DNA from: Frankia nepalensis
GTDB lineage: Bacteria > Actinomycetota > Actinomycetes > Frankiales > Frankiaceae
Reading direction: 5' to 3'
Assembly (NCBI RefSeq): GCF_016786325.1
Contig: NZ_JADWYU010000201.1
Span: forward strand, 1-64,000
Length of the DNA stretch: 64,000 nucleotides
The notes beneath the pieces were generated by a model, which had not been told where the DNA came from, ran no database searches, and worked only from the letters and a program-made list of their open reading frames with translations. Of the stretch, positions 1 through 35,877 are shown in pieces (within the stretch, counting starts at the first letter, position 1; each line of letters begins with the position of its first letter). Position numbers and translations under genes: made by a program.

Positions 1-187
1 GCTGGCCGCACCAGGCCGTTCCTCGTCAGGCTCGCCTGGGATGACAGCCAACCTGACAGACGAGCCCACGGACGACGACGGACCGCTGTGGACCTCGGTG
101 GACGCAAGGGCCGAGGTGGGCGGACCCAGTGGACGTCAGCGGACGTCAGCGGACGTCAGCGGACGCCCCTGGATGATCCAGATCAAA
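1..187. other. Intergenic stretch with a 10-bp tandem repeat
   Basis: No convincing gene is seen here. The short reading frames have no ribosome binding site and no recognisable protein. The main structure is three perfect tandem copies of GGACGTCAGC at 131-160, with degenerate GGACG-type copies on both sides. The stretch ends at the tRNA-like attachment-site remnant. Confidence 0.6.
131..160. repeat. 10-bp tandem repeat, three copies
   Basis: Three exact head-to-tail copies of GGACGTCAGC, followed by a partial fourth (GGACGC). It lies about 30 bp from the tRNA 3'-end remnant, so it may be part of an integration scar. Confidence 0.8.
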
Positions 188-229
188 CTACGGATCAAAA
201 GGTTGGGGGTTCGAGTCCCTCCGAGCCCG
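188..229 (+). other. tRNA-Arg 3'-half remnant, probable att site
   Basis: The stretch reads like the 3' half of an actinobacterial tRNA-Arg. CTACGGA (188-194) would be an anticodon loop with ACG. Then come a variable region, a 5-bp T stem (205-209 with 217-221) around the T loop TTCGAGT (210-216), and an acceptor 3' strand with discriminator (222-229). The 5' half is missing: no D arm and no matching acceptor strand lies upstream, so it is not a functional tRNA. A tRNA 3' segment without its 5' part is the usual product of tRNA-targeted integration. No integrase is visible in the window. The tRNA identity is inferred from the loop only. Confidence 0.6.
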
Positions 230-775
230 GTTCGCCGTCTCCCGGCCCTTGTCGTCAGCCGCCAGCATCTGCGCGCTGTCGAAGTTCCACGACTCCGGCA
301 GTTTCCCATCGCAGAGGGCGCAGACAAAGTCACCTTCACGCACGATGTTGCGCTCGCCGCACCGCGGGCAGCGGCGGAAGACGAACCCGTCGGTGAATTG
401 CCCGGGATGGGGCACACCCGCTCGGTCGAGAGCGTCAGCGACCGCCGGCCAGGAGGCGACCTCCGGGCAATAGCCCGTCGACTGGTTGGTCACCGCGACG
501 CATTCCCAACCCTCCGGCCCACGTGCGAAGGTGATCTCACCCGCGCTCAGAACCTGGCCGCCTCCCGCGCACGCCACGTGCTCGCTACGCCGCGGAGCCA
601 GGCGCAGAACACCGTCCACGCCGATGACGAAGGTGAACGGCTCCCGCGCCTCGGCGCCCTCGGAGCTGGTCAACCACGCCTCCAGATCGCCTCGTGACCT
701 GATCACCCGGCCAGCGGCGCCGTGCGCCGCGCTCGCCCGGACTTCAGCCGGACCGACATAGCGGTACGCCCACAT
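188..775 (-). CDS. Conserved hypothetical protein with C-terminal zinc ribbon
   Basis: Function unknown. The protein is about 195 residues from the start MWAYRYVG. A longer form starts at 808 with MTWSSRG, where ATG overlaps the stop of a small upstream frame (ATGA). The N-terminal two thirds looks like a compact globular domain. The C-terminal part has paired cysteines (CPRCG, then CALC 14 residues later), typical of a zinc ribbon. The last residues, SNPQPFDP, are the familiar reverse translation of a tRNA 3' end, because the frame runs into the tRNA-like att remnant. The natural C-terminus was therefore probably near ESWNF and has been replaced by integration. The gene resembles a family of uncharacterised actinobacterial proteins; no closer assignment is made. 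Confidence 0.7.
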   Translation of the reverse strand: MWAYRYVGPAEVRASAAHGAAGRVIRSRGDLEAWLTSSEGAEAREPFTFVIGVDGVLRLAPRRSEHVACAGGGQVLSAGEITFARGPEGWECVAVTNQSTGYCPEVASWPAVADALDRAGVPHPGQFTDGFVFRRCPRCGERNIVREGDFVCALCDGKLPESWNFDSAQMLAADDKGRETANRARRDSNPQPFDP

Positions 776-804
776 CCCGCCCGCCGCTCCGCGCGATGAC
801 CAGG

Positions 805-942
805 TCATCCGTCCGTCTGCTCCTCCGAGTCGAACCAGGCGTCGAGCTTCGAGGCCGCGGCGTGGCTGACGCCTTCGACCATGTCGACATAGATGTCCCC
901 CGCCATCGAACTGGCACCAGCGACCGCCTGCCCCGCCTCCAT
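805..942 (-). CDS. Small hypothetical ORF coupled to the zinc-ribbon gene
   Basis: A 45-codon frame beginning MEAGQAVAGA and ending EEQTDG. Its TGA overlaps the ATG at 808 of the next frame, which suggests translational coupling. In the same frame upstream, an in-frame TAG follows a plausible coding stretch (QQDLRNRASVRA), so this may be the tail of an older, interrupted gene rather than an intact one. The protein has no known motif and looks soluble. It is weakly supported and listed because of the overlap. Confidence 0.35.
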   Translation of the reverse strand: MEAGQAVAGASSMAGDIYVDMVEGVSHAAASKLDAWFDSEEQTDG

Positions 943-1147
943 GCCAGCGGGAGCGGCCGCGGCGCATCCGCCTGCGTCCGCGGACTATGCACGGACTGAC
1001 GCCCGGTTGCGCAGGTCCTGCTGAGCAGCATCGCCGATCAGGGCACCATCTCAGCCGTAATCTCAGCAGGCTTAAAATCTGCCGCCCGAGAGCGTGGGGG
1101 CTGTTTAGTCTCGACGCGGGCAGGTCTGGGTCTGCGATCCTGATTGG

Positions 1148-1540
1148 GTGGAGAGCGCAGACGCGGGTGGGCGGCTAAGCGACGCGGAGTTGCGGGAGTT
1201 GGCCCGGCTACTGGCACGGCTCGCCGAGCATGATCTAGATCAGTGGGAGAACTGGCGGCTCCAGACCTCGCAGGGTCCGGTCTACGTCCGAGTGAGCCGG
1301 GCGTTGGAGTCGGACTGGCCGGAGGATGCGTTCACCACGATCTGGCCGCCGATGGCGCAGATGAGCGACGGCCATCCCGGGGACGGCCGGCCGGGAGGCT
1401 GGACGGTATGGCGGCAGGACGACAACGGCAACCGGTACGTGGTGTCGCGGCACGACGCCCGGCCGGAGGCCGATCGGGTGGCCGAGACGATGGAGAGCCG
1501 CGGCCATAAGCAGACCTATTGGGTCACCCGGTCGGCGTGA
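1148..1540 (+). CDS. Hypothetical protein, about 130 aa
   Basis: Product not recognised. The frame starts at GTG 1148 with no strong Shine-Dalgarno. The protein is acidic and soluble. Its N-terminal half is helical (residues 10-35, rich in Leu, Ala and Glu). Its C-terminal half reads VWRQDDNGNRYVVSRHD and ends in a segment like SRGHKQTYWVTRS, a pattern often seen in small actinobacterial proteins with an SPOR-like or degenerate repeat end. It stands alone, with no operon partner within 300 bp on the same strand. Codon use is typical of the chromosome, which supports a real gene. Confidence 0.6.
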   Translation: MESADAGGRLSDAELRELARLLARLAEHDLDQWENWRLQTSQGPVYVRVSRALESDWPEDAFTTIWPPMAQMSDGHPGDGRPGGWTVWRQDDNGNRYVVSRHDARPEADRVAETMESRGHKQTYWVTRSA

Positions 1541-1574
1541 GCCCCGGACCCGGTCACGAGATCAAGCATCGAGC

Positions 1575-1617
1575 CGGTCGGTCGGTCGGTCGGTCGGTCG
1601 GTCGGTCGGTCGGTCGG
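1575..1617. repeat. CGGT tetranucleotide repeat, 10.75 units
   Basis: Nearly eleven perfect CGGT units between the 1148 gene and the lipoprotein gene. The tract is in no frame that seems to be translated, since the lipoprotein starts at 1873. Perfect tetramer tracts of this length are prone to slippage. Confidence 0.9.
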
Positions 1618-1872
1618 CGAAGGTTAGCGACGAATCCAGCCATGACCTGGCCGATCACGCGCGGATCCCACCGACGTCTCGCCGCCGCTCGAGTACATAG
1701 CCAGTGCCACCAAGGTCACCGGGAGACTCGCCGGAGCGCTTCCGGCGGTCCGCCCAATGGGTCGCAGACGAGGACCAAGGCGGCTAACAACGCAGGTCAG
1801 GTCAGGAGTACCCTTCTTGTCTGCCCGTCTGGCACAGGGGTGAGCCAGCGGACGTCGGTATCGGGGGCTCGC

Positions 1873-2457
1873 ATGGACCGTCCCGCAACCAGTCGGATCC
1901 GCGTCGCCGCTCGCGCGGGTCTGCCCGCGCTCGCGGTTCTCGTGGCCCTCGGCCTGTCCGGATGCGGCACCTCCGCTGACGATGACGCGGCGTCATCGCC
2001 GCCCAGGACAACACAGACCGGGGCGGCCACCGCGGGCACGGCTACCCCCGGTGCGTCGGTCACCGCCTCACCAGCGACCGGGCTTGTCGACGCCTCCGCG
2101 AATCCCTGTGGACTCGTGTCCCAGCAGGAGGCCGAGCGGCTCGCCGGAACGTCACTGGCCAGCCCGGTCGCGGTGGATGAGACGTGCACCTACACCGCGC
2201 CGCCCGCCGGGCCGACCGCCCAGGTCGAGGTCCGCGTCGGGCAGACGGCGCTGGACTTCTACACCGCCGAGCGCCAGTCCAACAGCAGGCTCCAGCCGCT
2301 CCCCGGAGTCGGCGACGACGCCTACGTCGGCGACTACACGGTCTTCATCGCCAAGAACGACTTCAACGTGTCCATCAACCTGGTACGCGGCAACGACCCA
2401 GCGGAGAACCGCGGCCCCCTCGAGAACCTGGCCCGCACCGTCGCCGGCCGGATCTGA
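1873..2457 (+). CDS. DUF3558-like lipoprotein
   Basis: Secreted lipoprotein of 194 residues. The chosen start MDRPATSRIR gives a classic signal: basic N-region, a hydrophobic core around residues 18-32, and lipobox LSGC followed by Gly. A Ser/Thr/Pro/Ala-rich linker comes next. The C-terminal domain (about residues 75-194) has the pattern of DUF3558-type actinobacterial lipoproteins: PCGLVSQQEAERLAG, a second cysteine in ETCTYTAP, and a conserved PGVGDDAYVG stretch. The frame is open 118 codons further upstream through the CGGT repeat, but that part has no coding character. Role unknown; family members sit on the outer face of the membrane. Confidence 0.8.
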   Translation: MDRPATSRIRVAARAGLPALAVLVALGLSGCGTSADDDAASSPPRTTQTGAATAGTATPGASVTASPATGLVDASANPCGLVSQQEAERLAGTSLASPVAVDETCTYTAPPAGPTAQVEVRVGQTALDFYTAERQSNSRLQPLPGVGDDAYVGDYTVFIAKNDFNVSINLVRGNDPAENRGPLENLARTVAGRI

Positions 2458-2637
2458 CCCGCGCCACGCCCGGCACCAACTCCGCGCGGCCGAAGGCCGA
2501 CGGCCAGCCGGGGCCGGCCCAGCAGGCCAGACCGCCGGGGCGAGGCAGGGTCCACCGGGCCGCGATGGACCCGACGCCCCACATCGACGAATCGGGAAGA
2601 CTCCGTGGCTCGTCGACGTCCATGGGACGATGCGTCG

Positions 2638-2985
2638 ATGACGGACGACGGGTGTCATATCCGCCATGCTGGCGCGAGCGACGAAGAACCCACTCCGGGC
2701 CGGCGTCGAAGACGGCGGACGCCTATTGCGTGGGTTCGCGATGATCTAACGAAGATAACAGGACCCCGCACTATGGTGCACACCATTCAAGATCACCCAG
2801 GTATCATATTGCGCTGGATTTCCTACCTCGTCATAGCAAACGGGCTGACCGCGCTTTCGTTTTGGCTTCTGGGAAAACTCGATCTTTTCGAGCGCTACTT
2901 CTTCGTCCCGACGGTTCTCGCCAGTGCGCTGATCGGACAGCGACTCCACGATCTCAAGGCTCAAGAAGAAGAGCGGCGTTCGTGA
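2638..2985 (+). CDS. Small membrane protein, unknown function
   Basis: Unrecognised protein of 115 residues from ATG 2638. A GTG at 2605 would add 11 residues, and an internal ATG at 2773 gives a 70-residue form that starts just before the hydrophobic part. Two probable membrane segments follow: ISYLVIANGLTALSFWLLG and YFFVPTVLASALIG. The tail is charged (LKAQEEERRS). The base composition from about 2740 on is lower in GC than the neighbours, a mild sign of foreign origin. The start is uncertain; the two-helix core is the solid part. Confidence 0.55.
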   Translation: MTDDGCHIRHAGASDEEPTPGRRRRRRTPIAWVRDDLTKITGPRTMVHTIQDHPGIILRWISYLVIANGLTALSFWLLGKLDLFERYFFVPTVLASALIGQRLHDLKAQEEERRS

Positions 2986-3334
2986 TGTCGCGAACGAAGC
3001 CAGAATCAGTGTTTCGTCCAGCCGTGGATGCGCGAATGGTGTGCCGGTATGCCTTGACAGCCGGATTGGCGGCCAGGCCGCCGCGCGACGGCAGACGAGC
3101 GTGGACGCCTGAAGTCGCCGCCGGTACGGGCCAGCTTCGCGGCGGCTGGGGACATCTCGACGGCGCCAGCCCGTACCGCTTCACCTTGATCGTCACTTTG
3201 TGTAGCCACCCGCATTTTACTCACCGTGTCATCTCAAGCGCGGATTGCGATCAGGGCGCGAGCGTTCCACCCTGGATCAGTGCGGCTCCGCCTCGGGGCC
3301 GCGCATCGAAGTCCATCCGCGCTTAGGAGGACAT
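2986..3334. other. Intergenic region upstream of the DUF397 gene
   Basis: About 350 bp. No frame here has a recognisable product. It includes a lower-GC patch near 3200-3235 that could hold the promoter of the DUF397 gene. The Shine-Dalgarno AGGAGG lies at its end (3325-3330). Confidence 0.5.
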
Positions 3335-3565
3335 ATGAGCAGAGACATGCGATCCATGCTCACCACCCTCGACCAGGACGAGCTTGCCTGGCACAAGAGC
3401 TCCGCCAGCCCCTACCGCCTCGACTGCGTCGAGGCGGCGCCCGTCGACGGCGGCATGCTGCTGCGTGACTCCACCGACCCGAAAGGCCCGATCCTCGCCT
3501 TCAGCGACTCCGAATGGAACGCGTTCCTCACCGGCGTCCGCAACGGCGAGTTCGACCCGAGCTGA
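3335..3565 (+). CDS. DUF397 domain protein
   Basis: Small protein of 76 residues with the DUF397 signature: AWHKSSAS, then CVEAAPVDGG, LLRDSTDPKGP, and the end EWNAFLTGVRNGEFD. The start at 3335 is fixed by a strong AGGAGG 5 bp upstream. In actinomycetes, DUF397 genes usually sit beside an XRE-type HTH gene of the whiJ/abaA-like group and are thought to act as its small partner. No such HTH gene is seen here, so this copy is an orphan. A strong terminator follows 15 bp after the stop. Confidence 0.88.
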   Translation: MSRDMRSMLTTLDQDELAWHKSSASPYRLDCVEAAPVDGGMLLRDSTDPKGPILAFSDSEWNAFLTGVRNGEFDPS

Positions 3566-3580
3566 CCCAGCAGCAGGACA

Positions 3581-3609
3581 GCCCCGAAGGCCACCTCGGC
3601 CTTCGGGGC
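3581..3609 (+). terminator. Terminator of the DUF397 gene
   Basis: A perfect 12-bp stem (GCCCCGAAGGCC with GGCCTTCGGGGC) around a 5-nt loop, 15 bp after the DUF397 stop. There is no U-run, as is common in high-GC actinomycetes. Confidence 0.85.
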
Positions 3610-3621
3610 ACCACCCGGTGC

Positions 3622-6897
<3,276 letters not shown>

Positions 6898-6909
6898 CCG
6901 TGTCCTCCG

Positions 6910-8118
6910 TCAGACGCGCTCGATGATGGTGGCGATGCCCATGCCCGCGCCGACGCACAGTGTCGCCAGGCCGCGGCGGCCGCCGGTGCGCTCGAGCTCG
7001 TCGAGCAGGGTGCCGAGGATCATGGCGCCGGTGGCGCCGAGCGGGTGCCCGAGCGCGATGGCCCCGCCGTTGACGTTGACCAACTCGGCGGGGACCTTGA
7101 GATCGCGCTGCCACTTCAGGACGACGGCGGCGAAGGCCTCGTTGAGCTCGAACAGATCGATGTCCTCGATCGTGCGGCCGGCCTTGGCGAGCGCCTTCTC
7201 GGTCGCCGGCGTGGGGCCGGTCAGCATGATCGTCGGGTCCGAGCCGGTGACGGCCGTCGCGACGACGCGAGCCCGCGGGGTGAGCCCGAGCCGCTCGCCC
7301 ACCGCGGCGTCGCCGATGACCATGAGCGACGCGCCGTCGACGATGCCGGAGCTGTTGCCCGCGTGGTGAACGTGCTCGATCTTCTCGAGGTGGTGGTACT
7401 TCTGGAGGGCGACCGCGTCGAAGCCGGCCTGTTCGCCGAGGGCGGCGAAGGACGCGGGCAGCTGGCCGAGGGCCTCGACGGTGGTGCCCGGCCGGCGGTG
7501 CTCGTCGGTGTCCAGGACGACCACGCCGTTCAGGTCGGTGACGGGGATGATCGACCGGGCGAACCGCCCCTCGCGCCACGCGGTGTCGGCGCGCTCCTGG
7601 GAACGGGCGGCGAAGGCGTCGACGTCCTCGCGGGAGAACCCCTCGAGCGTCGCGATGAGGTCGGCGCTGATTCCCTGCGGGACGACGTACGAGTCGTAGA
7701 CCGTGGTGGGGTCCTGCAGGTAGGCCCCGCCGTCGGAGCCGAGCGGCACCCGGGACATCGACTCGACCCCGCCGGCCAGCACGAGGCTTTCGAAACCCGA
7801 GCCGACCTTCTGCGCGGCGAGGTTGACCGCCTCCAGCCCGGAGGCGCAGAAGCGGTTGACCTGCACGCCGGCGACGGTCTCCGGCAGCCGCGCGACCATC
7901 GCCGCGGTCCGCGCGATGTCGCCGCCCTGCTCGCCGACCGGGGAGACGACGCCGAGGACGATGTCGTCGATCTGGCCCGGGTCCAGACCGGGGTTGCGCT
8001 CCTTCAGCGCGTGGATCAGGCCCACCACGAGGTCGACCGGCTTGGTGCCGTGCAGCGCCCCGCCCCGGTTCTTTCCACGGGGGGTGCGAACGGCGTCATA
8101 GATGAATGCCTCGGTCAC
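6910..8118 (-). CDS. Acetyl-CoA C-acyltransferase (thiolase)
   Basis: Degradative thiolase of 402 residues that cleaves 3-ketoacyl-CoA with CoA. The acylated cysteine is Cys91 in [12 protein letters not shown]. The catalytic His358 is in GHPLGATGA, and the second cysteine Cys388 is in [10 protein letters not shown]. Length and motifs are complete. It supplies the last beta-oxidation step in the operon, between the acyl-CoA dehydrogenase (30 bp upstream) and the hydratase/dehydrogenase (12 bp downstream), and probably forms a trifunctional-like complex with the latter. Expression probably follows the operator at 10008-10030. Confidence 0.95.
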
Positions 8119-8148
8119 GTGGTCCCCTTTCTCGCCTGGCCGTCCGCG

Positions 8149-9312
8149 TCACAGGCCCAGGTCACGGCCGACGATCTCCTTCATGATCTCCGTCGTGCCG
8201 CCGTAGATCGTGGTGATGCGCGCGTCGACGAAGTCGTGCGCGATGCGGTACTCGGCCATGTATCCGTAGCCGCCGTGCAACTGCAGGCAGCGGCCGACGA
8301 TGTCGACCAGCTGCTCGGTCGTCCAGAACTTGGCCGCGGCGGCCTCGGCCGCCGTCACCTCGCCGCGCGTGTGCCGCGCGATCAGGTCGTCGACGTAGAC
8401 CCGGCTGACCCGGGTGGCGGTGACCATCTCCGCCAGCTCGAACCGGGTGTTCTGGAACGAGCTGACGGGCTTGCCGAACGCCTTGCGCCCGGTCACGTAG
8501 GCGACGGTGCGTTCGAGGACACCCTCGGCCGCGGCGACGGCGCCGGCGGCGATCGTGAGCCGCTCCTGGGGAAGGTTTCGCATCAGCCCGGCGAAGCCGG
8601 AGCCCTCCTCGCCGAGGAGGTTCGTGACGGGCACCCGCAGGTCATCGAAGAACAGCTCGCTGGTGTCCTGGGCGTGCAGGCCGATCTTCTCCAGGTTGCG
8701 GCCGCGGCCGAACCCGGGGGTGTCGGCCTCGACGACCAGCAGGCTCAGGCCCCGGTGCGGGTCCTCGCCGGTCCGCACCGCGGTGACGACCAGGTCGGCG
8801 TTCTGCCCGTTCGAGATGAAGACCTTGCTGCCGTTGACGACGTAGTGCTCGCCGTGGCGCACCGCGCTCGTGCGGATGCCGGCCAGATCGCTGCCGGTAC
8901 CCGGCTCGGTCATCGCGACGGCGACCACCAGCTCGCCGCTGGCGATCCCGGGAAGCCAACGGGCCTTCTGCTCGTCGTCGGCGAGGTCGGTGAAGTACGG
9001 GATGACGATGTCGTTGGACAGCCCGATGCCGGCCAGGCCGTCCGACACCGGGTTACGGCCGAGCTCCTCGGTGACTATCGCGTTGAAACGGAAGTCCCGG
9101 GTACCCCCGCCCCCGTACTCCTCGGGGATGTTGAAACCGAGGATGCCCACGCCCGCGGCCTCCTCGAACAGCCATCGGTCGACCTTCCCCTCGGCGCGCC
9201 AGCGCTCGGCGTTGGGCTTGGCGTGCTTGTCGACGAAGGCACGGACGGTCGCTCGGAAATGCTCGTGCTCATCGTCGTAGAGGGCGCGGCGCGTCGCGAA
9301 GACGCTGCTCAT
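8149..9312 (-). CDS. Acyl-CoA dehydrogenase
   Basis: FAD flavoenzyme of 387 residues for the first beta-oxidation step. FAD and substrate motifs are clear: AMTEPGTGSDL near residue 133 and GSKVFISNGQ near 161. The usual C-terminal catalytic Glu is replaced by Gly (IYGGTTEIM). Glu250 in NLPQERLTIA is in the position used by long-chain and isovaleryl-type dehydrogenases, which points to a long-chain or branched substrate. The start ATG has GGAGA 7 bp upstream. It is the second gene of the leftward operon. Confidence 0.94.
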   Translation of the reverse strand: MSSVFATRRALYDDEHEHFRATVRAFVDKHAKPNAERWRAEGKVDRWLFEEAAGVGILGFNIPEEYGGGGTRDFRFNAIVTEELGRNPVSDGLAGIGLSNDIVIPYFTDLADDEQKARWLPGIASGELVVAVAMTEPGTGSDLAGIRTSAVRHGEHYVVNGSKVFISNGQNADLVVTAVRTGEDPHRGLSLLVVEADTPGFGRGRNLEKIGLHAQDTSELFFDDLRVPVTNLLGEEGSGFAGLMRNLPQERLTIAAGAVAAAEGVLERTVAYVTGRKAFGKPVSSFQNTRFELAEMVTATRVSRVYVDDLIARHTRGEVTAAEAAAAKFWTTEQLVDIVGRCLQLHGGYGYMAEYRIAHDFVDARITTIYGGTTEIMKEIVGRDLGL

Positions 9313-9363
9313 CGATTTCTCCGTTCAGCGTTTTCATGCCATGGCGGGCGGAAACGAAGGAGC

Positions 9364-10030: not shown

Positions 10031-10200
10031 GCCGGAAACCGTCCTGATCGAAGACGAACCGGCGGTCGGGAAAACCGGCCGGGATCCACCGTGAGGACCC
10101 TGGTGCCGCCTCAGGCAATGCCGGCCCGGTCGACGGCCCGGCAGCGCGGAACCCCCGTTACTCCCCTCCCTCGCCTCTCCCACGTCGAGGCGACATCCGA

Positions 10201-10297
10201 GGGATCCCGGACGTCCTGGCAGACACCAGGGTCACGAAACGGTGCCGGTCCTGGCTCTGGCGTCTGACACGATTCCCCGTGACGTCGGACAGGACGA
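10201..10297 (-). repeat. Dispersed about 90-bp palindromic element, copy A
   Basis: Read on the minus strand this begins TCCTGTCCGACGTCACGG, then AATCGTGTCAGACG. It continues through CGTTTCGTGACCC and ends GTCTGCCAGGACGTCC. It aligns along its whole length with copies B-E at 49.8-52.2 kb. It lies in the gap between the operon promoter and the 3' end of the GMC gene. Confidence 0.7.
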
Positions 10298-10344
10298 CCG
10301 CGCCTCCGCACGCTGGCCCAAGGCGAACGGTGCCGGGCATGGCA

Positions 10345-12297
10345 CTAGGTAAGCCTGGCGGCCAGGCGGCGCGCGTTCATGTAGGCAATCGCCTCGATCG
10401 AGATCATGGGATTGACTCCCGACGAGGTGGGGAAGCAGGACGCGTCCACGACCACGACGTTCGGCACCTCCCAGGTGGTGCCGTCCGGATCGGTCGCGCT
10501 CATGTCCTTGGAGCCACCCATCCGCGCCGTGCCCATGAGGTGCAGCGCGGCGATGGCGCACTGGCCGGGGCCGTAGCCGGCGGAGTGGCACGCGGCGACG
10601 AACTCCTCGTAGGAACCACGCCTCCCGGGCTCGTACGACGGTCCGGCCTGGTGCGCGGAGTAGATCCTGCGCGCGCCCGCGGCCTCGATGATCCTGGTCG
10701 CCCCCTCGACTCCCGCCCTCAGGTGCGCGGCGTCGTGGTCCGAGAGCCGGTAGCGCGGGACCGGCTCCCCGTCCCGCCCGACCCTGACCTCGCCGGAGTC
10801 ACGGTCACGGGTGATGATGCCGACGCCCCCGGTGTGCACGAGGTCCTTCATGGTGGCAAGGTGCGCCGCACCGCCCCGCCAGTTGAGGAAGCCCTGGAGG
10901 GCCGCCGGGTTGCCCGGGCCCGTCTCGTAGATCACGCCGTATCCGGCGCCGTCGAGATCGCTGTGCTCCCGGGAGTAGCGGGTCTGCAGGCCGCCCTCCC
11001 ACGGCCGGACCTTCTCGTCGTACACGCCCCAGACGGCGGTCGCCGGGTGCAGGCGCAGGTAGCGGCCGATGTTGGGGTTGGACAGGCCCGAACGGCGCAG
11101 CAGCGCGGGAGTCTGGATGGCGCCGGCGGCGACGACGACCGCTCGGGCGCGCACCGTCACGGCGTGGCCGTCCCGCGTGGTGCCCTGGACGCCGACGGCG
11201 TGGCCCCCACGCACGTCGACCCGGCGCACGTCGACGTTCACGACGAGCCGGGCTCCGTGGGCCTCCGCGTCCGCGAGCCAGGTCTTCGTGACCGACTGCT
11301 TGGCGCCGAGGCGACAGCCGTAGCCGCACCGGCCGCAGTCGGTTCCCATGTCGCAGTTGGTGACGTTGCGCGGCATCGCGTCGACATGCCAGCCAAGGGC
11401 GGCCAGGCCGCGTTCCATCACCACGTCACGCGCGGAGGCGACGCTGTGGTCGGCGTTGACCGAGAGCCGGCGGGACACCGCGTCCAGCGCGTCGGAGAAT
11501 TCCCGCTGGTCGAACTGCCCGGCCCCGAGGGCCGCCCACTCCGCGCGGATCCGCGGCGGGGTCGGGAACGAGGTGGTCCAGTTGACGACCGTCCCCCCGC
11601 CCAGGCAGGACCCGGCGACCAGGGCGACCTGCCCCTCGGCGGTCGTGGCCGGCCCCGCCGCGTACAGCCGGCTCAGGCCCGACAGCTCGCCGCCGTCGAA
11701 GTCCGCGTCGTCGTAGTAGCCGCCCCGTTCGAGCACGACGACGTCGAGACCGGCAGCGGCGAGTACGCCGGCCGCGGTGCCGCCACCGGCGCCCGAACCG
11801 ACGATCACGACGTCGCAGTCGTACGCGGTGTCCGAGGTCGGGGTCAGGGGGGCCAGCGGGGGCCGGGGGGCGTCCGGCAGCACGCCGAGCGGTCCGGGGT
11901 AGCCGATCGCCTCCCAGACCGGTGACGACCCGGTGGGTCCGGGCGCGGCGAAGTACGACGACGTCGCCAGACCACGCAGGGCCTGGAAGATCACCCGCTT
12001 CTGGGCCGACGACGAGGCTCCCAGCCGCAGGAGCGCGTCTTCTCGCGCAGTGGGCCCGAGCGAGGAGAACCGTTTCGGCCCCGCGCCGAGGAGCAGGCCC
12101 ATCAGCCGCGTGTCCCACAGCGAGAGCAGCGTCGAGAGCTGCCTGCGGTCGGCGGCCCGGGGCAGGCCCGCCGCCATGGCAGCGGCGATGTCGACCGCGC
12201 CGAGCGCGCTGGCGGACGGGATGTCCGCGCCGTCGCCGGGCGCGAAGGTGTCGCAGATAGCGGCGAGGGCCGCGAGCTGCTGGGGCTTGAGTGTCAT
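10345..12297 (-). CDS. GMC-family FAD oxidoreductase
   Basis: A 650-residue flavoprotein. The start MTLKPQQL is chosen because the coding pattern begins there. The first 140 residues form a helical domain (DTFAPGDGADIP) seen in long-chain alcohol oxidase-like members. The ADP-binding loop is VIVGSGAGGGTAAG, followed by VVVLERGG. A cysteine-rich insert, NCDMGTDCGRCGYGC, is typical of this subgroup. The C-terminal GMC domain has HLMGTARMG and FPTSSGVNPM. It would oxidise an alcohol or sterol-like substrate, which fits the beta-oxidation operon. Its promoter carries the same operator as that operon, so they are probably co-regulated. Confidence 0.92.
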   Translation of the reverse strand: MTLKPQQLAALAAICDTFAPGDGADIPSASALGAVDIAAAMAAGLPRAADRRQLSTLLSLWDTRLMGLLLGAGPKRFSSLGPTAREDALLRLGASSSAQKRVIFQALRGLATSSYFAAPGPTGSSPVWEAIGYPGPLGVLPDAPRPPLAPLTPTSDTAYDCDVVIVGSGAGGGTAAGVLAAAGLDVVVLERGGYYDDADFDGGELSGLSRLYAAGPATTAEGQVALVAGSCLGGGTVVNWTTSFPTPPRIRAEWAALGAGQFDQREFSDALDAVSRRLSVNADHSVASARDVVMERGLAALGWHVDAMPRNVTNCDMGTDCGRCGYGCRLGAKQSVTKTWLADAEAHGARLVVNVDVRRVDVRGGHAVGVQGTTRDGHAVTVRARAVVVAAGAIQTPALLRRSGLSNPNIGRYLRLHPATAVWGVYDEKVRPWEGGLQTRYSREHSDLDGAGYGVIYETGPGNPAALQGFLNWRGGAAHLATMKDLVHTGGVGIITRDRDSGEVRVGRDGEPVPRYRLSDHDAAHLRAGVEGATRIIEAAGARRIYSAHQAGPSYEPGRRGSYEEFVAACHSAGYGPGQCAIAALHLMGTARMGGSKDMSATDPDGTTWEVPNVVVVDASCFPTSSGVNPMISIEAIAYMNARRLAARLT

Positions 12298-12413
12298 AAG
12301 CACGCCCCAGGGCCTCGGCCGGGGACGTCGCGCCGGCTCTCGCCCGGTTCCCACTCGCTGGTGAGGTGCCGCGCCACAGGCGCGCACGTCCGGCGGTACG
12401 CGAGGCTCGCGAC

Positions 12414-12429
12414 TCCGATGATCATCGGA
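12414..12429. promoter_or_regulatory. 16-bp perfect palindrome upstream of the GMC gene
   Basis: TCCGATGATCATCGGA is a perfect palindrome 117 bp before the GMC start and inside the probable leader. It may be a second operator, or a small RNA hairpin. There is no direct evidence for a binding protein. Confidence 0.4.
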
Positions 12430-12489
12430 TCAGGTGACGGCGCCAAGGTGCACTCCCTGTCGAACCGGGCCGGCTGGACCCGGTGGGGC

Positions 12490-12533
12490 AAGCGTAAGCC
12501 GCTTGTTGGCACCATGACAACAAGTTGTTGGCG
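12490..12533 (-). promoter_or_regulatory. Operator and promoter of the GMC gene
   Basis: Arms CTTGTTGGCA (12502-12511) and TGACAACAAG (12515-12524) form the same 3-nt-spaced inverted repeat as at 10008-10030. A further TTGTTGGC half-site follows at 12525-12532, so two overlapping sites are possible. On the minus strand TTGTCA can act as a -35, with TACGCT 18 bp further as a -10. The layout matches the operon promoter. Confidence 0.7.
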
Positions 12534-12711
12534 CTGCGACAACGATCTGCCCAGGAGTCGCCCAGGGCCAGGAGGAGAAGACGACCAGGTCAGGCGAGAC
12601 GGGCGCGCCGCCGCCCACCCCGAGGGACAGTCGAAAGATCAATCAGATGTTCCGCGTCACGGGCGGCGCACTACGTCTGACTGATCTTGTCTTTACATAT
12701 GCGGCTGGCGG

Positions 12712-12725
12712 GGCGAACGTTCGCC
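12712..12725 (-). terminator. Possible hairpin after the TetR gene
   Basis: GGCGAACGTTCGCC is a perfect palindrome 19 bp after the TetR stop. It could form a 5-bp stem with a 4-nt loop. It is short, so it is a weak terminator candidate. Confidence 0.35.
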
Positions 12726-12744
12726 GAGGTGACACCGACCGCGT

Positions 12745-13374
12745 CTACCGCGCCGCCGACATACCCGGCAGGACGTCGCGGACGATGGACGTCAGTGCGT
12801 TGCTCAGCAGCAGATGAACGTCTTCCCGGGTGAGGGTTCCGCGTCTGATCCACTCGCGGATGGCCGCGCGCGCGAGGCCGCCGTACGCCCGAAGGACCGC
12901 GCGTTGCCGTTCGTCGTCGAGTTGCGCGGCGAACCCCACCGCCTCCAGCACCTTGCCCGCGGCAAGGTCGTCGGCCTCGTCGATGATCTGCTCCACCTCC
13001 GGGTCGTCCCCCACCCCGCCGGCACCGGTCACGGCGACGAAGGTCGGGCCGTAGGCGCTGACCGTGTCGAGGAACCACGTGACGCTGTGGTCGACCCGGC
13101 GCTTCAGCGGTCCGCGCATCGGCCCGATCGAATCGGCGTACGGAAGCATCACCATGCGGCGCACCACCTCGAGGTAGAGCTCCCGCTTGGTGCCGAAGTA
13201 GTGGTTCACGAGGCCTCTGGCCACGCCGGCCTCGCGCGCCACCTCCGTCATGGACACCTGCGCGTAGGGCCGCTCACCGAGCAGGCGCACCGCGCACTCG
13301 AGGATCTGCTCACGCCGTACGTCCGGCTCGAGGCGTCGCCAGCTCGCGCCGACGTCCTCGGAGGAGGTCGTCAT
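12745..13374 (-). CDS. TetR-family regulator, probable repressor of the catabolic regulon
   Basis: A 209-residue TetR protein. The N-terminal HTH (residues 20-66) reads RREQILECAVRLLGE, TEVAREAGVARGLVNHYFG, then TKRELYLEVV. The C-terminal ligand domain is helical. It lies next to the GMC gene in the same orientation and is the nearest regulator to the two shared operators, so it is the best candidate to bind them. A half-site CTTGTTGGCG occurs at 13587-13596, about 210 bp before its own start, possibly for autoregulation. The ligand would plausibly be an acyl-CoA; this is inference. Confidence 0.88.
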   Translation of the reverse strand: MTTSSEDVGASWRRLEPDVRREQILECAVRLLGERPYAQVSMTEVAREAGVARGLVNHYFGTKRELYLEVVRRMVMLPYADSIGPMRGPLKRRVDHSVTWFLDTVSAYGPTFVAVTGAGGVGDDPEVEQIIDEADDLAAGKVLEAVGFAAQLDDERQRAVLRAYGGLARAAIREWIRRGTLTREDVHLLLSNALTSIVRDVLPGMSAAR

Positions 13375-13781
13375 CGCGCCGCGGTCCCGTGACGCCGGGT
13401 CGTCGAGCGCCCAGGCCGCGCCCGCCCCGGCCCGCTCCCCACCGCGCGGGCACCCGCCGGACGACGGCGCCGTTCACGGACGGGGCGCGGCCACCGCTGG
13501 CCACCGGCGGACCGAGCACGCGCCGACGCGCCGCCGCCGAGGGCGGACGGGATCTCCAGGAAGCTCACCGACGGCAGGTTAACAGCCTTGTTGGCGGTCG
13601 GCTCACGAGTGCCATCTCCTGATCACGCTGTCCGGTGACCGTGAAGCGGGGCCGGCGCGGTGGCCGGCGCGGGCGTGCTGAAGCCACTCACGGTCGGGCA
13701 GTCGCACGGGCCGCCGTCGTGGTCCGCGTCGGTGGTCAGGGCATGATCGGAGAGGTTCACCCGCAGGTTCCCGGAGCCGGG
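13375..13781. other. Intergenic region between the TetR and FAD enzyme genes
   Basis: About 400 bp with no believable gene. It holds the TetR promoter side. A GTTAAC patch followed by CTTGTTGGCG at 13587-13596 resembles one half of the regulon operator. The rest is featureless high-GC sequence. Confidence 0.5.
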
Positions 13782-35329: not shown

Positions 35330-35725
35330 TCAGGCCAGCGCGGACCGGATCCGCTCAGCCACCTCGTCCAGCTCGTCCGACGCCGGGTTCGGGTCGGCCA
35401 GCGCGAAGTCGAGCTGCTTCTCGCTCTCGATCGGGATCAGGTGGACGTGGGTGTGCGGCACCTCCAGCCCGGCGATGATCGCAGCTACCCGCCGCGGCTG
35501 GAACGCCTCCTGGATCGCCCGGCCGACCTTCGCCGCCGCGCTCCACAGCTCACGCTGCTCCGCGTCGGGCAGGTCGATCCAGTGATCGACCTCGAGGCGC
35601 GGCACCACCAACGTGTGCCCCGGCCGGATCGGGGAGATGGTCAGGAACGCCACCGTGTGCTCGTCCTCGTAGACGAACCGGCCCGGCAGCTCCCGGTTGA
35701 TGATCCGGGTGAAGATAGTCGGCAT
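35330..35725 (-). CDS. HIT-family hydrolase
   Basis: A 131-residue histidine-triad protein. The active site is HTHVHLIP (residues 91-98), with the His that takes the nucleotidyl group. The N-terminus IFTRIINRELPGRFVYED is typical of HinT-like enzymes that hydrolyse nucleoside phosphoramidates or dinucleotides. It is a stand-alone gene with a canonical length. Confidence 0.93.
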   Translation of the reverse strand: MPTIFTRIINRELPGRFVYEDEHTVAFLTISPIRPGHTLVVPRLEVDHWIDLPDAEQRELWSAAAKVGRAIQEAFQPRRVAAIIAGLEVPHTHVHLIPIESEKQLDFALADPNPASDELDEVAERIRSALA

Positions 35726-35877
35726 GGCTGGGACCCTACCGAGCCCGCCACCTCGGCGGATCTACCGGACGCGCCCGCGCGAGAGCCCAGTTCCCGGGCT
35801 TGAGGACTCCCGGCCCGCCCCGGGAACGGACGCCCGATTCACAACACGCCGACCACCTGTGAGCCAAGGCTCCCGCA

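Follow-up and report, generated by a model that had tools for sequence, protein, structure and literature searches.

A tRNA-Arg half at a Frankia nepalensis contig end as a probable attachment junction within a family of arms with anticodon-loop cores

The lone 3′ half of a tRNA-Arg gene near the left end of a Frankia nepalensis contig leads to a family of attachment arms, and bases 1–229 around it are best explained as the right attachment junction of an AICE-derived element or a small cassette. Related units are proposed to have been moved in trans and to have come to lie in tandem. We assign this reading a probability of about 0.75. It builds on the observed sequence and anatomy of the arms, on their family, orientation and core identity, on the content of the cassettes and on some homologous blocks that end at a core. 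The window, i.e. the whole stretch of DNA analysed here, comprises bases 1–64,000 of contig C188. Its source genome (G000) is 10.7 Mb in 398 contigs. Other G numbers designate the genomes of relatives, and C numbers designate contigs.

The tRNA-Arg(ACG) 3′ half lies at 188–229 on the plus strand. Window bases 187–229 match the intact tRNA-Arg(ACG) gene of the source genome (G000:C333:51997–52070, minus strand) at 42 of 43 positions (97.7% identity), and no tRNA 5′ half is present beside it. ARAGORN predicted no tRNA in the window and an Rfam scan of bases 1–4000 with E values up to 1 gave no tRNA match, so that neither search found a complete tRNA on another strand. With the near-identical gene on C333 and the blank ARAGORN result, the initial annotation was right that the half stands alone, and the intact counterpart it had called for in the same genome is present. 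When 28 bases of the half were used as a search pattern that allowed up to 3 mismatches, four places in the whole genome matched, namely the window, a second lone half (C333:35706), the intact gene (C333:52000), and a further tRNA region that differs at 3 positions. The reversed control gave none, which indicates that the half is real and not a chance match. That the resemblance is a coincidence, that the fragment functions as a tRNA piece in its own right or that the other strand encodes a whole tRNA is very improbable in view of the 42/43 identity to the host gene and the two empty tRNA searches; the arm family beside the half also speaks against it.

The gene to the right of the half has a hybrid end. 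This zinc-ribbon protein gene (188–808, minus strand; Pfam zinc-ribbon matches below the cut-off) encodes 206 residues from an ATG at 808, and a longer form of the same open reading frame spans 188–967 with a start at 967. The C-terminus of the longer form is RARRDSNPQPFDP, and its last 13 codons and stop codon are the antisense of 188–229. Fifteen homologues stop 0–13 residues past the aligned part, while the window protein extends 30 residues. Since the homologues do not have the extension, the hybrid end is real, and the earlier proposal that this C-terminus is a reverse reading of the tRNA half holds for 13 residues and the stop. ARAGORN found no tRNA in the stretches of the 15 homologues. 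A search against 40 relatives found the gene in 1 of 41 genomes, the source genome itself, and at class level it was present in 21 of 393 genomes including the source, with 15 of the other 20 belonging to one genus of another family. The zinc-ribbon gene would have been joined to the core, so that its stop codon is now supplied by core-side sequence. A match of C188 191–817 to the C333 integrase query was rejected as an artefact because the query also contained the zinc-ribbon protein.

The sequence to the left of the half (18–187, plus strand) is an attachment arm of a family of about 150 bp, as identified by profile matches and the family alignment. We read it as the right-hand end of an element or cassette, the body of which would be situated to the left of the contig start. 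The arm contains paired 8-bp direct repeats, TGACAGCC at 42–49 and TGACAGAC at 54–61 (plus strand), which belong to the class-specific part of the arm and are probably arm-type integrase sites. Nine GGAC motifs on the plus strand follow within 70–164, starting at 70, 80, 90, 100, 122, 131, 141, 151, and 161. Most of them are 10 bp apart, the peak spacing throughout the family. At 131–160, three 10-bp units follow one another in tandem, a run that is not seen in any other arm of the alignment, and the corresponding 10-bp direct repeat family (D1) spans 127–165. The 10-bp repeats that had been described as lying beside the half are thus real, and they are part of the GGAC run of the attachment arm. 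A core-proximal motif, GATCCAGATCAAACTACGGA (175–194, plus strand), is conserved across the arms of the family. Its end is the 7-bp core CTACGGA (188–194, plus strand), which is identical to the anticodon loop (positions 32–38) of tRNA-Arg(ACG) and is the proposed crossover region.

The window opens at the first base of its contig, and the ends of C188 and C210 share exactly 77 identical arm bases before they diverge (79% identity over 230 bases). The break at base 1 was probably caused by the repetition of the arm in the genome. Contig ends that coincide in this way typically result from k-mer breaks at repeats, and the same left neighbour may exist twice.

A complete element of the kind that would leave such a junction is present on C333 of the same genome. 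In order, C333 contains the intact tRNA-Arg gene, a tyrosine integrase (PF00589, E = 7e-21), a RepSA-type replication protein (PF20199, E = 4e-103), an FtsK-like transfer protein (PF01580, E = 3e-8), an arm, and, 16 kb from the gene, a lone half. Judged by these parts, the 16-kb element is an AICE. Bases 35494–35745 and 51788–52039 of C333 form a 252-bp perfect direct repeat that extends 209 bases beyond the tRNA half, which suggests a recent insertion or gene conversion. Both copies of the tRNA 3′ end are present on C333, and the window has a single copy before the contig break. An integrase C-terminal remnant lies past the lone half of C333. It is 38% identical to the C333 integrase over 118 residues, and 84% and 88% identical over 98 residues to the integrases of two relatives. 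A large gene for an EAD1/NB-ARC/TPR (STAND-type) protein (C333:38356–41181) adjoins an arm. A long repeat-rich open reading frame that is partly similar to it and includes a run of unknown bases (C144:54758–59323) lies beside the arm array of C144.

A similar arrangement continues to the right of the half in the window. A tyrosine integrase C-terminal remnant (811–939, minus strand) shares 56% identity with the AICE integrase of C333 over 45 residues (E = 4e-6) and points toward the half, with the zinc-ribbon gene in between. The integrase that the initial annotation had suggested looking for is therefore represented twice, by the intact AICE on C333 and by the remnant beside the half. The order of arm, half and integrase remnant is the same as on C333; the window half is accordingly taken to mark the joint of two units, a left one off the contig and a decayed right one. 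A small open reading frame for 126 residues (2605–2985, plus strand) has a homologue immediately ahead of an arm in G006 (40% over 85 residues, E = 9e-18), and at the DNA level the corresponding stretch of G006 matches, at 79%, a segment that precedes another arm in G005. The frame in the window also precedes an arm, a weak and decayed one without a visible core (3054–3163, plus strand, E = 7.7e-6). A second profile placed this arm at 3046–3156 (E = 8e-5), in the same orientation as the first arm, and a third profile at E = 1e-4 did not recover it. The small set of open reading frames scanned from bases 1–2460 gave no match to a replication initiator or an FtsK-type protein. The decayed second unit to the right of the half would thus consist of the zinc-ribbon gene, the truncated integrase, cargo open reading frames and the weak arm. 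A GGTC tetranucleotide tandem repeat was noted at 1575–1617, ahead of a lipoprotein-like open reading frame. Conserved chromosome starts to the right of the array (3748–9326; 87% identity to G004:C100:1737–7378).

The window array appears to be located away from the tRNA-Arg gene. Among the tRNA loci taken from the source genome, ARAGORN found Arg(ACG) on C333 only, and the part of C333 that lies upstream of this gene shows synteny with G001, G002, and G003. In its right flank the window shows synteny with G004:C100, starting at 3748, and partly with contig C2 of G006. ARAGORN predicted no tRNA in either of these stretches, of which that of G004 includes a flank of only 1.7 kb. In G006 the tRNA-Arg gene is on contig C1, and the parts syntenic with the window are on C2. 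Because the sole tRNA-Arg gene found is on C333 and the syntenic stretches have no tRNA, the array is placed elsewhere. An integration or deletion at a tRNA, as the initial annotation had it, is therefore supported as regards an integrase-type junction with a tRNA half, and not supported as regards the place, the one tRNA-Arg(ACG) gene found being on another contig. Likewise, its idea of an old integration site fits the AICE-type junction and the integrase remnant, but the half belongs to a family of arms with cores, many of which lack any tRNA half.

The locus might instead once have held a second tRNA-Arg gene of which the half remained after a deletion, as a real tRNA half with an integrase remnant nearby would allow. 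We consider this improbable. Six of the seven same-genus relatives have the tRNA-Arg sequence, each with one intact tRNA-Arg(ACG) gene, as was found in the source, and five of the six have one or two lone halves in addition. The arm left of the half is common to many other places, and the syntenic stretches just described have no tRNA. The view that C188 is the far end of the tRNA-Arg island was rejected, since C333 itself continues into sequence with matches in G006 and G002 that lie some 50 kb downstream of the tRNA-Arg genes there. A short match of C188 2458–2982 to G006 764355–764816 was read as a shared cassette gene. Contig C357 of the source genome contains 27 tRNA genes within 3.3 kb (10141–13487), which seems unusual for an actinomycete chromosome and is possibly of mobile origin.

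The arm is not specific to the window. Elsewhere in the source genome, the sequence to the left of the half is found again both with and without a tRNA half. In whole-genome counts, GATCCAGATCAAACTACGGA with up to 2 mismatches was present in 18 of the 35 family genomes, at 36 sites in all (reversed control: 0). A profile built from 58 aligned arms matched in 7 of the 8 genomes of the genus, with 122 matches in total and 27 in the source genome; one arm may yield two of these matches, as that of the window does. In a stricter class-wide search, likewise by whole genome, matches were found in at least 44 of 393 genomes and in at least 31 of the 35 genomes of the family. Outside the family, at least 13 of 358 class genomes gave weak matches, none better than 4.8e-10 among the matches listed. 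Further counts come from a set of regions totalling 1.39 Mb that were mostly chosen for their arms or halves, and these counts differ in kind from whole-genome rates. Arms contain 5.07 GGAC motifs per 140 bases, mostly spaced by 10 bp, compared with 0.84 in control stretches, and they carry a pair of 8-bp direct repeats of variable class. In this set, an arm was found at 23 of 29 lone Arg halves, and at 4 of 9 lone halves that had been located by the tRNA sequence alone. The left flanks of the other 6 of the 29 halves were unmatched by the arm profile. Five lone halves (L044, L050, L051, L052, and L055, from G004, G003, G001, and G005) have a different, mutually similar left flank without GGAC repeats, which we interpret as another arm type on the same core. 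The window arm had no match in phages and one in plasmids, a stretch of 40 bases in OV884288.1 (4728–4767; 92.5% identity to window 170–209) that covers the core motif and part of the tRNA. The record is a 4.8-kb Corynebacterium diphtheriae plasmid with no annotation.

The cores of the arms correspond to tRNA anticodon loops. Of 150 arm matches in the fetched regions, 23 stop short of the core and 127 were counted; arms with CTACGGA were among those used to build the profile, which favours the placing of this core, though not of cores with other anticodons. The pattern YTNNNRA was found at the predicted core position in 113 of the 127 arms. Shifts of 1 and 3–7 bases in either direction gave 0 and a shift of −2 gave 1, with a maximum of 8 anywhere within −10 to +15. 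In 94 arms the core is identical to an anticodon loop of the host (54 distinct loops), compared with 0–2 at 11 shifted positions, and the remaining 33 cores differ from every tRNA loop of the source genome. The commonest cores are CTACGGA (49), CTCTTAA (15), CTCATAA (14), TTTGCAA (5), CTCATGA (5), and CTTGTAA (4). They are the loops of Arg(ACG), Lys(CTT), Met(CAT), Ala(TGC), and Thr(TGT), except for CTCATGA, which is no loop here. The 85 distinct tRNA sequences of the comparison are affected by stray letters past the 3′ end in the ARAGORN-parsed tRNAs and are not a gene count; such letters may also touch the last few of the 38 compared bases.

The lone halves of the genus match the tRNA only from CTACGGA, or from one base earlier, onward. 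Among the Arg, Lys, and Met arms, 26 of 78 keep the tRNA half and 52 are without a full half. These 52 arms are 69% identical to the cognate tRNA in the 10 bases past the core and 30% identical further on. The drop in identity suggests a short right-hand core site.

The class of the paired repeats tends to go with the class of the core. Arms with TGACAGCC (n = 39) have the Arg core in 29 cases, the Lys core in 1, and other cores in 9. The Arg core is also found in 17 of the 18 arms with GTACTGCA, the Ala core in 5 of the 6 with GTGTAGC, and the Lys core in 4 of the 6 with GTGTACCC. The TGGCAGCC arms (n = 33) comprise 6 Lys, 17 Met (4 of them the CTCATGA variant), 1 Arg, 1 Thr-CGT, and 8 other cores. 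In the GTACAGCC class, which follows the core poorly, only 3 of 10 arms have the Thr-TGT core, and 15 of the 127 arms show no recognised repeat class. Each repeat class may be served by its own integrase, for which the trend is roughly as expected.

The arms are arranged in arrays of uniform orientation. Within 3 kb, 82 pairs of neighbouring arms have the same orientation, and the two opposite pairs are reverse-strand matches that lie on forward or reverse arms already counted. Neither the interval list nor the array sizes include the reverse matches in G003:C217 and G005:C11 or the second piece of the split arm of the window. The arms fall into 35 groups with at least two members, and 28 stand singly. 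Among the 82 intervals of up to 4 kb, lengths range from 38 to 3950 bp, with a median of 884 bp. In 45 of them 75 open reading frames were called, 60 of which are at least 300 bp long; 43 run against the arm and 32 with it. Pfam matches in the intervals include helix-turn-helix genes with Gp49 neighbours and DUF5615 genes with DUF433 neighbours, pairs that we read as toxin–antitoxin-like. Further matches are to PIN, HepT-like, GIY-YIG, DUF1877, DUF3885, the SUKH-3 immunity family, and transposases, and the intervals also carry genes of unknown kind. PADLOC gave few matches, in 14 families. Among the 25 families listed of the 72 in the Pfam tally of the 75 frames, no phage-type integrase was found; integrase remnants are present in some intervals, as detected with two AICE integrases as queries.

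Two origins of these arrays were weighed, and both contain the junction reading of the window. They differ on how the arrays arose, and our confidences in them overlap. In the first, which we prefer, AICE tyrosine integrases would bind the class-specific arm repeats and recombine at the 7-bp core in the anticodon loop. Small units with an arm and a core and without an integrase would be moved in trans by these enzymes and would accumulate head to tail. In the second, full-size AICEs were stacked in tandem at tRNA genes, their bodies were lost by internal deletion, and the leftovers were shuffled by homologous recombination between arms of similar sequence, with no mobility of cassettes. We regard this second origin as a serious possibility with somewhat less than an even chance. 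Tandem AICEs in a Frankia tRNA gene and their joint excision are described in PMC3218068 (section 11), and integrase C-terminal remnants beside the halves of C188 and C333 agree with such stacking. So do the many arms that keep part of a half or none, and the exactly 77 arm bases over which C188 and C210 are identical before diverging. In addition, 27 of the 30 arrays with at least two readable cores contain different cores, some of them merely single-base variants. Repeated insertion by one integrase would not explain this, which counts against the preferred origin. The stacking of full-size elements is opposed by the shortness of the intervals, with their median of 884 bp and few genes in place of AICE bodies, and by the recurrence of one unit next to different neighbours.

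This recurrence was found twice. A unit of G006 (762665–764192) is 96.5% identical over 1573 bp to a unit of G005:C69, to the left of which stands an arm with a different core. Three units that are adjacent in G021:C34 are distributed over two contigs in G024. The edges of homologous blocks were compared in 11 pairs that were picked by hand, several of which share a unit, with no test against chance. A block edge lies within 3 bp of the core in 5 of the 11 pairs, at both ends in one case, and in the other 6 no edge of the main block does. The case with both ends is a pair of copies in G021 and G017, whose shared block starts on the first base of one core and stops 2 bases beyond the next; a block extending from core to core is a further point against the leftover origin. 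The block shared by G021 and G024:C147 begins at the first base of both cores, and the block shared by C347 and G006 ends 2 bases past both cores. In two of the five positive pairs, G006/G005 and one of G021/G024, the edge fits in one sequence only.

On a wider view of the moved units, AICE attachment sites would have given rise to an integron-like system of gene capture in Frankiaceae, with arrays served by several integrases at once, each working through its own tRNA code word. Circular cassettes with a double-stranded arm of about 150 bp and a 7-bp core would be inserted and excised by resident AICE integrases, and such exchange may still be active. This proposal is tentative, and on balance we lean slightly against it.

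Several known systems resemble the arrays in part. AICEs in tRNA genes, tandem AICEs and their joint excision in Frankia are reported by Ghinet et al. (2011; PMC3218068), and according to PMC4117964 tRNA repeats are few at the ends of variable gene clusters. The C333 element is AICE-like (pSAM2 type) in its tyrosine integrase, RepSA-type protein, FtsK-like protein, insertion in a tRNA and duplicated 3′ half. The arrays differ from AICEs by combining cores of several tRNAs with few genes between them, an arrangement not described in the available part of PMC3218068. They also differ in that the readable part of the window and most intervals have no AICE body.

CIMEs are units flanked by att sites without an integrase of their own, occur in tandem and are thought to be moved by the enzymes of a relative. 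Set beside CIMEs, the units here are in tandem and may share the flanking att sites and the missing integrase, but their intervals have a median of 0.9 kb with none to few open reading frames and mixed core specificities. Integrons are similar in having same-oriented recombination sites, arrays, and short intervals with toxin–antitoxin-like and immunity-like genes. Unlike integrons, whose attC sites fold as single strands, the arms that were folded have no common hairpin. An attC-like hairpin was sought in 8 folded arms, and a strong fold was seen in the C333 arm only (z of −4.3 to 1.2 for the 8 on the arm strand, and −4.9 to −0.1 for 4 on the other strand). In addition, interval open reading frames face both ways here (43 versus 32), whereas integron cassettes mostly have one direction, and the cores here are tRNA anticodon loops. 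The tycheposons of marine bacteria are tRNA-linked elements with partial tRNAs that are larger and have their own recombinase; compared by description, they share the tRNA linkage and partial tRNAs and differ in size and recombinase. A search of the open-licence literature, with most subscription papers outside its coverage, found no description of arrays of arms with anticodon-loop cores.

By itself, the window half appears to be an ordinary tRNA half left by an AICE-type element, and its interest is in the arm family to which it leads. Frankia and its relatives have plastic genomes and few genetic tools. If the cassettes move, they would provide a route other than integrons to stockpile toxin–antitoxin-like, immunity-like and accessory genes in ordered arrays. 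The anticodon-loop core would serve as a sequence key that predicts the tRNA, and perhaps the integrase, of each unit. Even if the arrays are mere remains, the arm family would locate the ends of AICE-derived islands in Frankia-related genomes.
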